Positions 1,050 to 21,253 of a stretch of DNA of 64,000 nt are shown piece after piece. A model generated the notes under the pieces. It was not told the DNA's origin and ran no database searches. It saw only the letters and a program-made list of their open reading frames with translations. The position numbers and the translations under genes are program-made. Each line of letters starts with the position of its first letter. The first letter of the stretch is position 1. The stretch is from Alloyangia mangrovi (lineage in GTDB: Bacteria > Pseudomonadota > Alphaproteobacteria > Rhodobacterales > Rhodobacteraceae), in NCBI RefSeq assembly GCF_002300555.2, contig NZ_NTHN02000029.1, positions 1 to 64,000 on the forward strand. Reading direction: 5' to 3'.

Positions 1050-2042
1050 TCAGACCCTTGCGATCGCCTCGGCAATGGCCTGCATCCGCCCTGCCCCTTC
1101 GGGCAGCAGCGGCAGCAGCGCGGCAAGCAGCAGGCGGGCCTTGGCGGCGCTGAGATCGCCGGAGAGGATCGCCCCCGCCTCGACCATGGTCACGCCGCCG
1201 CTGTCGGCGCCATAGATGGCACGGGTCCGCCCCTCGGGGCAGCGGGTGGCAAGGATCACCGGGATGCCCGCGGCGACGAGCTTGCGGGTGGCCTCGGCGA
1301 AGCCCTTGGGCGCGTTGCCGCGACCGAAGGCCTCGATCACCACGCCCGAGACGCCGCTTGAGGCACACCACTCCATGTAGCGCGGCGTGCTGCCGAGCCC
1401 GAGCGCCATGAGCTCGACGTTCGGATCCAGAGACGGCGTTTCGATCACATGACGCGGGCGCGCCGGGCGGGTGTAGAGATGCACCTCGCCCTCGTCGACC
1501 TCGCCGAGCTTGCCGTGGCCGTTCGACCGGAAGGTGTCCACGCGCGAGCTGTGCACCTTGCTGACGTAGCGCGCACCGTGGATCTCGCCCTCGAAGACGA
1601 TGACCGCGCCGACGCCGGTCAGCTCGGGGCTTGCGGCGCAGAGCAGCGCGTCGCTCATGTTGCGCGGCCCGTCGGTGTCGGCCTGACCCGCGTGGCGCTG
1701 CGCGCCGGTGAAGACCACCGGCTTATCAGACCCGACGAGGAGCCGCGCGAGGAAAGCGCTCTCCTCCATGGTATCGGTACCATGGGTGACGACCACGCCA
1801 TCAACGCCGGCCTCGGCGAGCCGCGCATCGATGTGGCGGCAGAGCTTGTGGATGGTCTCGAGCGTCAGCGCGTTGCTGCCCGCGGCCTCGATATTGTCGA
1901 CTTCGACGGTGATCCCCGGCAGCGGCGCGTGCAGACTCTTCAGGAGCGCATCGCCGTTGAGCCCGGCGGTCACGGCGCCGCCCTCGGTCTTTGCGTAGGA
2001 GGCGATTGTGCCGCCGGTGGCGACGAGAACGATATGGGGCAT
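1050..2042 (-). CDS. L-asparaginase (type I/II asparaginase family)
   Basis: Predicted to hydrolyse L-asparagine to aspartate and ammonia. The 330-residue protein has the family motifs TGGTIAS (Thr12) and THGTDTMEE (Thr89, Asp90), plus Lys162 in ARYVSKVHSS. These match the catalytic residues of E. coli AnsB (mature numbering) at the same positions. No signal peptide is seen, so a cytoplasmic enzyme is likely. The ATG at 2042 was chosen because AGGAGG lies 5 nt upstream; longer readings to 2276 would run into a structured RNA. The gene lies about 120 nt downstream of, and on the same strand as, a predicted cuckoo-type RNA, so that RNA could be its 5' leader. Glutaminase side activity cannot be judged. 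Confidence 0.93.
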   Translation of the reverse strand: MPHIVLVATGGTIASYAKTEGGAVTAGLNGDALLKSLHAPLPGITVEVDNIEAAGSNALTLETIHKLCRHIDARLAEAGVDGVVVTHGTDTMEESAFLARLLVGSDKPVVFTGAQRHAGQADTDGPRNMSDALLCAASPELTGVGAVIVFEGEIHGARYVSKVHSSRVDTFRSNGHGKLGEVDEGEVHLYTRPARPRHVIETPSLDPNVELMALGLGSTPRYMEWCASSGVSGVVIEAFGRGNAPKGFAEATRKLVAAGIPVILATRCPEGRTRAIYGADSGGVTMVEAGAILSGDLSAAKARLLLAALLPLLPEGAGRMQAIAEAIARV

Positions 2043-2149
2043 GCGGACCTCCTGCGGGGCGGAACTGACGGTGCGTGACGCCTGCATAGGCGCGCGAGCG
2101 CGCGAAAGCCAGATGGCTTGGCGGCGGGTGCCTGTCCGGGGGTTTGCGG

Positions 2150-2267
2150 AGGGAGGGAGGATGCGGCGGCCCCAAGGGAGGAGGAGAAGGGCCGCCGCCG
2201 ATTTCCGGGGCTGAGGGAGGAGGAGAAAAACCCCGAAAAAATCCTTGGACGCGTTGCCGCGTCGACA
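2150..2267 (-). ncRNA. Cuckoo/CcsR-type small RNA, copy 1
   Basis: Read on the minus strand, the RNA would begin near 2266. A 6-bp hairpin with a GCAA loop (2248-2263) comes first. Then hairpin 1 (2206-2235) and hairpin 2 (2163-2198, 10-bp stem) each show CUCCUCCUCCC in the loop. A further pyrimidine run, CCUCCCUCCCUCC, follows hairpin 2. Loops with CCUCCUCCC are the hallmark of the CcsR/cuckoo RNAs of Rhodobacterales, which are stress-induced in Rhodobacter sphaeroides and complementary to Shine-Dalgarno sequences. The layout recurs at 20930-21058 with compensatory changes. The 3' end is not clear: the RNA may stop here or continue into the asparaginase mRNA. Family placement rests on motif and structure seen by eye. 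Confidence 0.75.
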
Positions 2268-2273
2268 GGAGCA

Positions 2274-2302
2274 CATTTAGGCGCCTGCCCCGGGCCGGAC
2301 AA
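2274..2302 (-). promoter_or_regulatory. Predicted promoter of cuckoo RNA copy 1
   Basis: On the minus strand TTGTCC (2297-2302) and TAAATG (2274-2279) are separated by exactly 17 nt. This places the start about 7 nt later, just before the GNRA hairpin. The second copy has the same layout with TTGTTC and TAATTT and 17 nt. A block reading CTGCA, four variable bases, TGTGCATTGT is shared around the upstream hexamer. The sigma factor is unknown. Confidence 0.6.
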
Positions 2303-2450
2303 TGCACATTCCTGCAGGGCCGACTTGTCGAGAGTGCATGGCGCGTGGAACCCCCTGAAAATACCCGGTCCGTGGCAGCCAACCGTGGCCGACTTGCTGC
2401 ACTCGCGGCCGACACGAATTTTTTTGAAGTCGGGCTCGCACAACAGCATA

Positions 2451-2480
2451 TTGACGCATCAGCGGCATCCTGTTCTAGAT
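2451..2480 (+). promoter_or_regulatory. Possible promoter of the nrdHIEF leader
   Basis: TTGACG (2451-2456) and CTAGAT (2475-2480) are 18 nt apart and would start transcription near 2487, where the cobalamin riboswitch begins. It faces away from the cuckoo RNA promoter at 2274-2302. The 10-type element is a poor match, so this is tentative. Confidence 0.4.
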
Positions 2481-2484
2481 ATAG

Positions 2485-2675
2485 TTGCTTTTCGGTTCAT
2501 CGAGTCGGGCGACGGCCCGGCGCGGCGCTAAGAGGGAAATCGGTGTAACACCGGTGCTGCCCCCGCAACTGTAAGCGGCGAGTGAAGGCCCAATGAGCCA
2601 CTGGGGACCCCCCCCGGGAAGGCGCGGCCGGACCCACGACCCGCCAAGCCAGGAGACCTGCCGAAGGCCTGACTG
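2485..2675 (+). promoter_or_regulatory. Cobalamin (B12) riboswitch upstream of nrdHIEF
   Basis: The conserved core of the cobalamin aptamer is plain. AGAGGGAA lies at 2531-2538, then GGTGTAACACCGG, GCTGCCCCCGCAACTGTAAG (near 2556-2575), GAGCCACTGGGG (from about 2595), GGGAAGGCGC (from about 2626) and GCCAAGCCAGGAGACCTGCC (2643-2662). A hairpin at 2711-2738, between the aptamer and nrdH, may be part of the expression platform. By the known behaviour of this class, adenosylcobalamin binding should lower expression of the genes downstream. Here those genes make a ribonucleotide reductase that does not need B12. Confidence 0.95.
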
Positions 2676-2775
2676 AATGACCACGAACGGAGGGTTCGGG
2701 GCGTGCGAGGACCGCGGCAGGCGCCAGGCCTGTGCGGTGACGCGTCCCCGCCTTCGCAGCTGAGGACGCAAGAGC

Positions 2776-6755: not shown

Positions 6756-9056
6756 TCAGAAGGTCTTGGTCAGACCGAAGTAATAGGCTCGGCCCGGCTC
6801 GTTATAGGTGTTCGCCCCGTCGCCCGAGCGCAGGATCTCGGTGTCGAAGACGTTGGTCACCCCGGCCTTGAGGTCGAAGCCGTTGTCGAACTGGTAAGTC
6901 ATCCCGAGGTTGACCAGCGTATAGGGGTCGCGGTCCTCGACGTCGTCCTGAGCATAGCCGGTGGACGCGCTGTATTCGGTCGCCTCGATTGCGCCGTAGT
7001 GGGTCAGCGAGGGAATGAGACTGAACTTGTCGTTCACGTTCCAGGTCACCGCGGCATTGATCGTGTAGTCGGGAACCAGCGACAGCGGCACGTCGACCTC
7101 GATGTCGTCAAAGCTTTCGCCATCCGAGTTGGTGCCGCCCTTGATCTTCAGCTTCTGGCTCGACTCGATCATGTAGGTCCCGTTGACCGCCAGCGAAACC
7201 CGATCGCCGAAGGGCATGGAGAAGCTGCCCTCGAGCCCTTCGACCGTCGACTCGGGGATGTTTTCCCACTGGTAGAGCCGCGCCGTGCTCGAGCCCACAA
7301 GCGTTGTCCCGACCTGTTCGGTGCCCGCCTGAATCTTGTTGCGGTAGTCATTGTGGAAATAGGTCAGCGTCGCGTTGATGCCGTTCAGGCCGGCATAGGC
7401 CACGCCGATTTCCGAATTGATCGAGGTTTCGGGATCCAGATCGTCGTTGCCCAGCACGTAGCAGGGTCCGTCGCCGACATAGGGGTAGGGGCAGCCATTG
7501 CCGCGGGTCGTATAGACGTAGGTGTCCGAGAGCTGGTAGAGCGTCGGCGCCTTGAACGCCCGGGCGACGCCGCCCTTGACCGTCCACTCCGAGTTGACCG
7601 CGTAGGAGGCATTCAGCCCGCCCGACCAGTTGTAGCCAAAGCTGTCGGCCCAGTCGACGCGCACCGAGGGGGTCAGCGTCAGCCGGTCGGTCCACTCGAT
7701 GTTGTCCTCGAGATAGAGGCCGAGGGTCAGCTGCTCGGTGATCTCGTCGCCCGAGGCGGAGTCGATGCTCCCGTCATCGGTGGTGAGCGACGAGAAGGAG
7801 CTGTAGTCGCCGAGGTCGAGCCGCTCGTAGCGCGCTTCCGCGCCGAGTGTCAGCGCCGAGGGGCGGCCGAGGAAGCTGCGGTCGATGTAGGTCTCGGACT
7901 TCGCCGCGATAGCGTCGAGCAGCGCTGTATCCCACTCGTCGGTCGCGTTGATCATACCCTCGGAGCCGCCGGCCGGACCCTCGGTCAGGCGGGTGTTGTC
8001 GGTGTGCTCGTACTGCAGGTAGCTGCGCGTCTCGCCCCATCCGTAGCTGCCGTTGTGGGTGATCGCGGCGGTGTAGCGCTCCATGACGTTGGTCTCGTCG
8101 CCGTCCTCGGCGAGATCATCGACAATCGTGCCGCCGCTCTCGGTCAGACCGCTGCCGAGCAGCTTGTCGCCAGCGTAGATGTTGCCCTGCCGCGACCAGC
8201 CGAGATCGAAATCAAAGCTGTTGCGGTCACTCGGCGTCCAGCGCAGCAGCAGCGAGGCATCCTTGTTCACCACGCCCTCGCTGCCCGCATCGTACCCACA
8301 TTCGGTTTCAGCGCCGGTGCGGTCGGTGCAGGTCTCGCCCTCGATGGTCTCGGCGTTGAGCTCGGGGTCATCTGCGTCGGTCTTGTTGTAACTGCCCGAG
8401 AAGCGCAGCGAGAAGTCGTTGTTCAGCTTCTTGGCCCAAAGCAGGTTGTAGCGCTGGGTCGCACCCTCGAGGCTGCTTTCGGGCACGTCGAAGAAGGTGC
8501 CGAGCTGCAACAGGTCCTCCTCCGGGGCCTTGGTGATGATGTTCACCACGCCGCCCGCTGCGCCCGAGCCATAGCGCGCCGCCGCCGGGCCGCGGATGAC
8601 CTCGATGCGATCCACCATCTCTGCGGGGACCCAGTTGGTGTCGCCGCGGGTGTCGCGCTCGCCCGAGCGGCCCATCTTGACCGAGGTGCGCGACAGCACC
8701 GGCTTTCCATCGATCAGGATCAGCACGTTCTCCGGACCCATGCCGCGGATGTCGACCTGGCGCTGGTTGCCGCGCTGGCCCGAGGGTGAGGTGCCACTGA
8801 GATTCACGCCGGGCATCTTGCGGATGATCTCGGCCACATCGTTGACCACGGGCTGCTTCTCGATGTCCGCAGCGGTGATCGTCGACGTGCCGAGCGCCTG
8901 CTTGATCTGCTCCTCGGCGGTCAGAACGATGGTGCCGAGTTCGTAGCCGCTGTCGTCGTCAAGGATGAGGTCCTGCGCCAGTGCCGGGGTCAGCGGGGCG
9001 GCGGACAGGAGAAATACGGCTGTGCCAGAGGCAAGCCGTGCACGTACGGATGCCAT
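6756..9056 (-). CDS. TonB-dependent siderophore receptor, FepA-like
   Basis: Outer-membrane receptor of 766 residues, predicted to bind a ferric siderophore and import it with energy from TonB-ExbBD. A signal peptide ends near residue 27 (TPALAQ). A TonB-box-like stretch (GTIVLTAEE) follows, then the plug domain (about 50-170) with IRGMGPENVLILIDG, GERDTRGDTNW and RGPAAARYGSGAAGGV. These motifs are typical of the FepA/PfeA catecholate-siderophore branch. The beta-barrel ends in a terminal Phe (YYFGLTKTF). The gene stands alone, with no siderophore ABC genes beside it. No convincing Fur, Irr or RirA site was recognised upstream. The exact ligand is inferred only from family resemblance. Confidence 0.92.
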   Translation of the reverse strand: MASVRARLASGTAVFLLSAAPLTPALAQDLILDDDSGYELGTIVLTAEEQIKQALGTSTITAADIEKQPVVNDVAEIIRKMPGVNLSGTSPSGQRGNQRQVDIRGMGPENVLILIDGKPVLSRTSVKMGRSGERDTRGDTNWVPAEMVDRIEVIRGPAAARYGSGAAGGVVNIITKAPEEDLLQLGTFFDVPESSLEGATQRYNLLWAKKLNNDFSLRFSGSYNKTDADDPELNAETIEGETCTDRTGAETECGYDAGSEGVVNKDASLLLRWTPSDRNSFDFDLGWSRQGNIYAGDKLLGSGLTESGGTIVDDLAEDGDETNVMERYTAAITHNGSYGWGETRSYLQYEHTDNTRLTEGPAGGSEGMINATDEWDTALLDAIAAKSETYIDRSFLGRPSALTLGAEARYERLDLGDYSSFSSLTTDDGSIDSASGDEITEQLTLGLYLEDNIEWTDRLTLTPSVRVDWADSFGYNWSGGLNASYAVNSEWTVKGGVARAFKAPTLYQLSDTYVYTTRGNGCPYPYVGDGPCYVLGNDDLDPETSINSEIGVAYAGLNGINATLTYFHNDYRNKIQAGTEQVGTTLVGSSTARLYQWENIPESTVEGLEGSFSMPFGDRVSLAVNGTYMIESSQKLKIKGGTNSDGESFDDIEVDVPLSLVPDYTINAAVTWNVNDKFSLIPSLTHYGAIEATEYSASTGYAQDDVEDRDPYTLVNLGMTYQFDNGFDLKAGVTNVFDTEILRSGDGANTYNEPGRAYYFGLTKTF

Positions 9057-20929: not shown

Positions 20930-21058
20930 GATCGGGGGCTGGGAGAAGGCGGGAGGTGCGGCGATCCCAGGGAGGAGGAGAGGGATCGCCGCCAATTTCC
21001 GGAACTCAGGGAGGAGGAGAGAGTTCCAGGAAACCCGTTGACGCATCGCTGCGTCGTG
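20930..21058 (-). ncRNA. Cuckoo/CcsR-type small RNA, copy 2
   Basis: On the minus strand the RNA would start near 21057. First comes GACGCA-GCGA-UGCGUC (21040-21055), a 6-bp hairpin with a GNRA loop. Hairpin 1 (21001-21027) has the stem GGAACUC/GAGUUCC, and hairpin 2 (20958-20992) has an 11-bp stem; both loops read CUCCUCCUCCC. Copy 1 shows the same order with different stem sequences that still pair (CGCG/CGCG against CGCA/UGCG, CGGGG against GGAACUC). Only the loops and the linker GGAAAUYGGCGGC stay fixed. A pyrimidine-rich tail (CACCUCCCGCCUUCUCCC) follows. The 3' end is not evident and may reach the nucleoside hydrolase mRNA. Confidence 0.78.
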
Positions 21059-21063
21059 AAGTG

Positions 21064-21092
21064 AAATTAGCCATTTTCACCGTCGCGAACAA
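21064..21092 (-). promoter_or_regulatory. Predicted promoter of cuckoo RNA copy 2
   Basis: TTGTTC (21087-21092) and TAATTT (21064-21069) on the minus strand lie 17 nt apart, exactly as in copy 1. The shared upstream block TGTGCATTGT overlaps the first hexamer. The spacers differ between the two copies, which suggests selection on the hexamers and spacing. Confidence 0.62.
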
Positions 21093-21253
21093 TGCACAGG
21101 ATTGCAGACCCGCTCTGAGCTGAGCGCATGGCGGGCCTGACGGCGCGCGCAATGAACAGCGATGCTCACCGAAGCGCTTCGGGTCCTTATTCGCGGCCGT
21201 TTCCGAATCTTCCAGCTGCTCGGCGTGGCAGGCGTATCTGCGACCGGAAATAA

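Follow-up and report, generated by a model that had tools for sequence, protein, structure and literature searches.

The window, that is, the entire 64,000-nucleotide stretch of Alloyangia mangrovi DNA analyzed here, carries close to its beginning, on the minus strand, a gene for a small RNA (sRNA) with three hairpins, two of which expose an anti-Shine-Dalgarno (aSD) loop. Downstream, on the same strand, lies an asparaginase gene. On the other side, divergent from the sRNA, a cobalamin riboswitch (2476-2679, plus strand, 125.4 bits) precedes nrdH-nrdI-nrdE-nrdF, the genes for the class Ib ribonucleotide reductase; this riboswitch is the only match at the Rfam gathering threshold in the whole 64 kb. 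Farther along, the window encodes a FepA-family TonB-dependent siderophore receptor (6756-9056, minus strand, 818 bits, above the cut-off). The features under discussion are the following, with R2 denoting a structural model that was built from 50 copies of the sRNA:

1050-2042, minus strand: asparaginase gene, downstream of and outside the RNA unit (NCBIfam asnASE_II, 8.3e-56, below the model cut-off)
2141-2162, minus strand: C/U-rich tail without a U-run (sequence and terminator scan)
2150-2270, minus strand: sRNA gene, three hairpins and the start of the C/U tail (R2 match at 2150-2272, 109 bits, with this copy in the training set)
2163-2198, minus strand: hairpin SL2, anti-SD loop CUCCUCCUCCC at 2176-2186 (fold and 50-copy alignment)
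2202-2239, minus strand: hairpin SL1, anti-SD loop CUCCUCCUCCC at 2215-2225 (fold and 50-copy alignment)
2248-2263, minus strand: 5' hairpin GACGCG-GCAA-CGCGTC with the GNRA loop GCAA (fold)
2275-2280, minus strand: -10 element CTAAAT (direct reading; spacer of 16 nt, or 17 nt if TAAATG is taken)
2297-2302, minus strand: -35 element TTGTCC (direct reading of the sequence)
2315-2340, minus strand: VtlR/LsrB-like LysR box CATGCACTCTCGACAAGTCGGCCCTG, spanning roughly -73 to -48 relative to the predicted start, with its core at 2328-2316
20944-21064, minus strand: second sRNA copy (R2 match at 20945-21064, 128.6 bits; in the training set)
21105-21130, minus strand: VtlR/LsrB-like box preceding the second copy (top-ranked of 127,950 positions, 32.0 bits; in the training set)

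Most of this layout had been anticipated by the earlier note on this DNA, which listed a promoter-like pair with 17-nt spacing, a GNRA-looped 5' hairpin and two anti-SD-looped hairpins with a pyrimidine-rich tail, ending about 120 nt before the asparaginase gene. All these elements are present: the two promoter hexamers are 16 nt apart, or 17 nt with TAAATG, the 5' hairpin occupies 2263-2248, although a GNRA loop is found in just 30 of 50 relatives, CTCCTCCTCCC is read on the minus strand at 2225-2215 in SL1 and again at 2186-2176 in SL2, and the asparaginase ATG (2042) lies 121 nt past the end of SL2. From the position of the promoter, the 5' end of the sRNA is predicted at 2268-2266. In an alignment of 60 promoters, the first T and the G of the TTG in the -35 element are invariant and the middle T is kept in at least 90%, and the -10 element has the consensus CTANNT with an invariant A, in support of the claim that the sRNA has its own promoter. 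A generic sigma-70 scan returned no promoter at the sRNA locus and a scan for intrinsic terminators returned none there either, so that read-through from the sRNA into the asparaginase gene is possible. The absence of a DUF1127 gene from the site holds as well, none of the five DUF1127 matches in the genome (E ≤ 0.01) being located on this contig (C91). What the earlier note had overlooked is the LysR-type box, the second copy in the window and the genus-wide family to which both copies belong.

The RNA is clearly structured. The minimum free energy of the sRNA segment is -52.5 kcal/mol compared with a mean of -38.65 for shuffled sequences (z = -4.25; none of the 200 shuffles is as good). Conservation of the fold was assessed in an alignment of 50 single copies with exact paired loops, from which L045 and L050 were omitted because their loops differ from the exact search string, L026 because it is the end of a cluster at a contig end, and L069 because it is a cluster. 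Both aSD loops are unpaired in all 50 predicted folds and are nearly invariant, and the 5' part, when folded alone, forms a hairpin in all 50 sequences, with a GNRA loop in 30. Under a structure drawn by hand from the folds and the alignment, 93.6% of the cells pair (98.4% in SL2), and 18 of the 29 pairs are changed on both sides, a number matched by only one of 500 shuffles; such paired changes are present in all three helices, including four of the six pairs of the 5' hairpin. The covariation score is 0.309; the shuffles give 0.195, with all 500 scoring lower, and the slid controls reach no more than 0.128. The count of further pair types shows no excess (37 vs 37.3 in shuffles), and the RNAalifold consensus contains SL1 and SL2 without the 5' hairpin, the columns of which align less well. 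The outcome that the earlier note had named as damaging to its reading, loss of the loops and stems in close relatives, is thus not what is found: both are kept, with paired changes, across the 50 sequences.

A covariance-model search places the sRNA near two known families. The Rfam CcsR1 model matches 2158-2243 on the minus strand with 44.5 bits (E = 8.6e-10, 441 nt searched; gathering threshold 65.3), and ar14 (RF02344) matches with 41.5 bits (E = 2e-06; gathering threshold 58.8); both scores are below gathering, and therefore, the sRNA is filed in neither family. The CcsR1 threshold is, in any case, rarely reached: none of the nine strong copies in this genome attains it, not even the five located behind a DUF1127 gene, and it is passed in only seven of 150 family genomes (RF02791). 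Under the broad definition, cuckoo RNAs have two to four hairpins with a conserved loop motif and variable stems (as cited in PMC4504443), and the sRNA fits, with two CUCCUCCUCCC-looped hairpins and stems that vary through paired changes. Hence the original call of a cuckoo/CcsR-type anti-SD RNA stands for the broad family, short of Rfam gathering.

Like CcsR1-4/CIN1 of Rhodobacter sphaeroides (RF02791), the sRNA carries a CCUCCUCCC loop on each of two successive hairpins, and the same genome also contains the DUF1127-linked tandem form, the promoters of which share a similar box. Unlike CcsR, the gene at 2150-2270 is a stand-alone single copy outside any tandem cluster, with no adjoining DUF1127 gene and with an extra 5' hairpin that lacks an aSD motif. 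The defining traits of the CcsR/CIN1 locus also include RpoHI/RpoHII-dependent transcription and processing by RNase E/CcaF1. The second relative, alpha-r14/NfeR1 of Sinorhizobium meliloti (RF02344), resembles the sRNA in being stand-alone and multi-copy, with aSD hairpins, its own promoter and an LsrB-type box upstream of the -35 element (here predicted). The difference is that NfeR1/alpha-r14 is reported to carry aSD motifs in all three hairpins (PMC7143759), whereas the sRNA described here has two aSD hairpins, the loop of the first hairpin being the non-aSD GCAA.

Searching the genome with the CcsR1 model yields nine strong hits, all with E ≤ 1.7e-7, followed by a tenth at E = 0.007. Five of the nine copies follow a DUF1127 gene as a tandem array on contig C110, which is the classical layout, and the other four are single: the gene at 2150-2270, the second copy in the window (matched at 20953-21034), and one each on contigs C81 and C116. 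The second window copy precedes a reading frame starting with MKLIIDTDPGVDDALAILY, which we take to encode a nucleoside hydrolase-like protein. Of 41 genomes (this one and 40 relatives), at least 25 are matched at E ≤ 0.001, including 20 from the same genus, and 83 of the 150 family genomes have a match at E ≤ 1e-6. The three-hairpin class is much narrower. With R2 at a cut-off of E ≤ 1e-15, 57 copies were found in 17 of the 20 genus genomes, from none (three genomes) to seven per genome; six of the 57 were recovered beyond the initial candidates and L045 was not recovered. In the 150 family genomes, the matches at or above 98.7 bits number only nine (four in this genome, two each in G007 and G166 and one in G164), and the tenth-ranked match, with 84.5 bits, sits in a tandem cluster. 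Among 289 genomes of the class, matches at E ≤ 1e-9 are confined to this genome and one family member; a scan of named genomes added two Pseudooceanicola endophyticus records. With strong matches so few in the 150 family and 289 class genomes, the three-hairpin RNA appears to have expanded within a restricted lineage. In G166, two copies located on separate contigs (L224 and L225) share an identical stretch of 274 nt, sRNA included, the product of a recent duplication.

Such a distribution could also be read as that of a decayed dispersed repeat, a relic without function that was spread by duplication, and the copy number varying from zero to seven, the three of 20 genus genomes without any copy and the identical pair in G166 are in line with this explanation. 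It is, however, highly improbable given that every helix shows paired changes, that the loops are nearly invariant, and that the promoter box is retained in copies many of whose flanks differ.

The proximity of the asparaginase gene calls for a different alternative. The earlier note had suggested that the RNA may also be a leader of the asparaginase mRNA; the sRNA would then be the 5' leader of this mRNA, with the aSD loops pairing in cis with the SD sequence GGAGG (2052-2048) and translation shut until the structure of the RNA changes. The sRNA and the asparaginase gene are indeed on the same strand, 121 nt apart, with no terminator found, and a close asparaginase (84-100% identity) is encoded in six of the 20 genus genomes, with the sRNA directly upstream in all six. 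GGAGG precedes four of these six genes and AGGAG one more, but one of the six has no GGAG before the ATG. In two further genus genomes, with a 59-61% identical asparaginase, the upstream 1.5 kb contains no paired loops. Moreover, the spacer diverges faster than the RNA, the identities of the RNA and of the spacer up to the ATG being, respectively, 98 and 61%, 86 and 36%, and 65 and 33% in three syntenic copies. One genome, G015, keeps the sRNA beside nrdH and has no asparaginase match at all; the frame behind its sRNA is a different one, presumably encoding a catalase-peroxidase-like protein. In the genus at large, sister copies precede different genes on either strand: among the 50 copies, 21 are followed by a frame on their own strand and 28 by one on the opposite strand, with no frame called in one case (by a codon-GC heuristic), and the flanks match those of no other copy in 30 of 50 cases downstream and 22 of 50 upstream. 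The association with the downstream gene is thus not maintained wherever the RNA is found, and the sRNA probably does not serve as a leader of the asparaginase mRNA; the cis-acting version, with the loops closing GGAGG, seems quite unlikely. A patch in the spacer, CTGGCNTTCGC...TATGCAG, is kept in three of four sequences (by eye) and is perhaps the asparaginase gene's own promoter. Like any other SD, that of the asparaginase gene may nevertheless be a target of the aSD loops. A coding interpretation was discarded: a 408-aa frame is open from 2276 through the asparaginase gene, and in the G014 orthologue only 333 aa are open, so that the extension is not conserved.

In the 50-copy alignment, a block of the form CATGC-N8-CA...G...T, about 70 nt before the predicted start, is kept where the flanks differ. 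When the window was scanned with a position weight matrix whose training left out the window copy and three syntenic copies, the box at 2315-2340 ranked second among 127,950 positions, with 23.5 bits compared with 14.5 for the next; rank 1 is the box of the second sRNA copy, itself in the training set. In a leave-one-out analysis, 48 of the 50 copies scored above 13.2, which is the 99.9th percentile for 5,000 random windows (maximum 17.0), the exceptions being L052 (3.6) and L027 (12.2). All seven untrained copies of the genus (L050 and the six found by the R2 search) also exceed this value, the lowest with 14.5, although some of them are orthologous or closely related to copies used for training. 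Other genera contributed three copies: a pair with identical sequences, at 21.2 each, and the G164 copy, at 1.1. None of 37 internal tandem copies scores above -9.1.

The box resembles published VtlR/LsrB sites, as far as sequences can be compared, without being an exact match. In S. meliloti, the AbcR1 promoter has GCAT-N3-TG-N3-T at -61 to -49 (PMC8844928), and the NfeR1 promoter has TGCA-N6-GCAT at -72 to -60, its LsrB box being reported at -72 to -57 (PMC10746234). Counting from 2267, the core of the window box is at -61 to -49 too; it reads ACAA-GTC-GG-CCC-T and has only four of the seven fixed bases of the Rhizobiales consensus; the argument for VtlR relies on better-matching boxes, those of the CcsR operon and of the region behind vtlR. 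The core in front of the DUF1127-CcsR operons is mostly GCAT-AGC-GG-CAT-T, with six of the seven fixed bases, and TGCATGGCAGCATTG (L188, a DUF1127-CcsR operon of another genus) is the same in 14 of 15 positions as CAATGCAGCCATGCA, the reversed form of the Brucella abortus VtlR site (PMC12595884).

The box is present in the DUF1127-CcsR operon promoters at all 10 loci considered (eight in this genus and two in other genera), which score 19.8-25.2 when the matrix is built solely from the single copies. The regular expression written to capture this box, which, like all such expressions used here, postdates the recognition of the motif, matches 10 of 20 loci from further genera, including six of the seven that pass the CcsR1 cut-off. 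A model of 60 promoters has six strong matches in the genome, five of which, the four single sRNAs and the CcsR operon, were in its training set. The sixth, untrained and the top match of the genome with 51.4 bits (L154, G000:C125:26487-26562), precedes a 59-aa arginine-rich frame and may mark a further VtlR target; by eye, this frame could pass for a degenerate DUF1127 protein, for which Pfam gives no match. Among 16 weaker matches, six were inspected, and five of these are likely due to chance (by eye). The remaining one, with 14.1 bits, is located just behind the vtlR orthologue and precedes a SorX-type sRNA (L159, 1054-1121, minus strand, 52.4 bits, above the Rfam SorX cut-off). The combination of the box and a SorX match behind vtlR recurs in G009, G010, G014 and G016; G003 and G022 have the box with no SorX match at gathering, and G023 has neither. 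Among three trxB-linked homologues from other families for which the following sequence was long enough (L082, L090 and L128), the box expression matched one. In Agrobacterium, abcR sRNAs sit behind vtlR (PMC7486931). Elsewhere in the genome, a DUF1127 gene (L130, 1082-1297, plus strand, contig C108, 40.3 bits) has upstream ATGCAGAGTCTGCATTGCGGGG, a palindromic variant of the box, and contig C125 carries a guanidine-II riboswitch (L160, 947-995, minus strand, 37.6 bits against a cut-off of 32).

The regulator itself was sought with a trxB-linked VtlR homologue from another family as the query. The best LysR homologue in the genome, in which the LysR domains are present, scores 301.6 bits at 50% identity, compared with 127.5 bits for the next, and thus stands clear of its paralogues as a single VtlR/LsrB orthologue; each of the 25 family members that were searched has one match, with 49-53% identity. 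The helix-turn-helix segment of the orthologue, LSQSAVSRQI, recurs unchanged in L090, one of the trxB-linked homologues. No LysR-like frame is seen (by eye) within 1.5 kb on either side of trxB in this genome, and the LysR-type regulator tree, being poorly resolved owing to very long outgroup branches, delineates no firm clade. LsrB was called unique to Rhizobiales in 2025, from a tree of few species (PMC11975290), and the occurrence of a VtlR-like protein in 25 of 25 family members would, on sequence grounds, speak against this. Among the papers listed, mainly the freely readable literature, there is no report that joins the CcsR/cuckoo RNAs of Rhodobacterales to VtlR/LsrB; of the papers listed, only PMC12501420 has both CcaF1 and LsrB, and there LsrB appears once, in the title of a reference.

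In R. sphaeroides, CcsR, SorX and SorY are reported to be under the control of RpoHI/RpoHII (PMC8307010, PMC10253847), and the RNA could be as described here but driven by an RpoHI/RpoHII-type sigma factor alone, or else the box could be bound by another LysR-type or unrelated regulator. Apart from this published control of the CcsR operon and of SorX/SorY, the four of seven fixed bases in the window box fit such an explanation. Sigma factors alone, though, leave the conserved box at about -73 to -48 unexplained, and another regulator fits less well with a box of this type right behind vtlR, before a SorX-type sRNA, or with the LSQSAVSRQI segment that the orthologue shares with L090. Either variant appears doubtful, and the VtlR and RpoH controls may act together.

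Taken together, the sRNA at 2150-2270 is likely to be an independent gene with its own VtlR/LsrB-activated promoter, the aSD loops of which block translation in trans, all within one regulon; the box conserved in front of the copies is suggestive of a single stress regulator common to them. For transcription, VtlR binding, trans-pairing and targets, we infer the following course of events. The LysR-type regulator VtlR/LsrB would bind at about -73 to -48 and activate the sRNA promoter, from which RNA polymerase would start at about 2267. The predicted transcript of about 110-130 nt would carry the 5' hairpin right at its beginning, where it probably shields the end of the RNA, while SL1 and SL2 would hold CUCCUCCUCCC single-stranded. 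By analogy with NfeR1, which is reported to repress translation via its aSD motifs (PMC10746234, PMC8844928), the loops would pair in trans with the Shine-Dalgarno sequences of mRNAs and block their translation. The dispersed copies and the DUF1127-CcsR operon would form one regulon.

This putative regulon is reminiscent of those of VtlR/LsrB in Rhizobiales (AbcR sRNAs, VrsA and three Brucella DUF1127 genes) in that a LysR-type regulator appears to have sRNA and DUF1127 targets, in the form and position of the box, and in the presence of an sRNA gene directly behind vtlR. It differs in belonging to another order, Rhodobacterales, in that the sRNA behind vtlR is of the SorX type rather than AbcR, and in that no LysR frame is seen beside trxB in this genome. 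On balance, and by a small measure, we favor the possibility that VtlR/LsrB extends beyond Rhizobiales and governs a regulon in Rhodobacterales that includes the CcsR operon, the stand-alone cuckoo RNAs, the SorX-type sRNA behind vtlR and DUF1127 proteins. If so, the circuit leading from a LysR-type redox regulator to anti-SD RNAs and DUF1127 proteins would be older than the divergence of the two orders, and the Salipiger/Alloyangia group would have spread up to seven promoter-bearing copies of the sRNA through the genome. The finding adds a stand-alone, three-hairpin, nearly genus-restricted form to the anti-SD sRNAs, offers a candidate common regulator for RNAs that in Rhodobacter have so far been ascribed to heat-shock sigma factors, and illustrates how a single sRNA gene, together with its promoter, can multiply within one genus.
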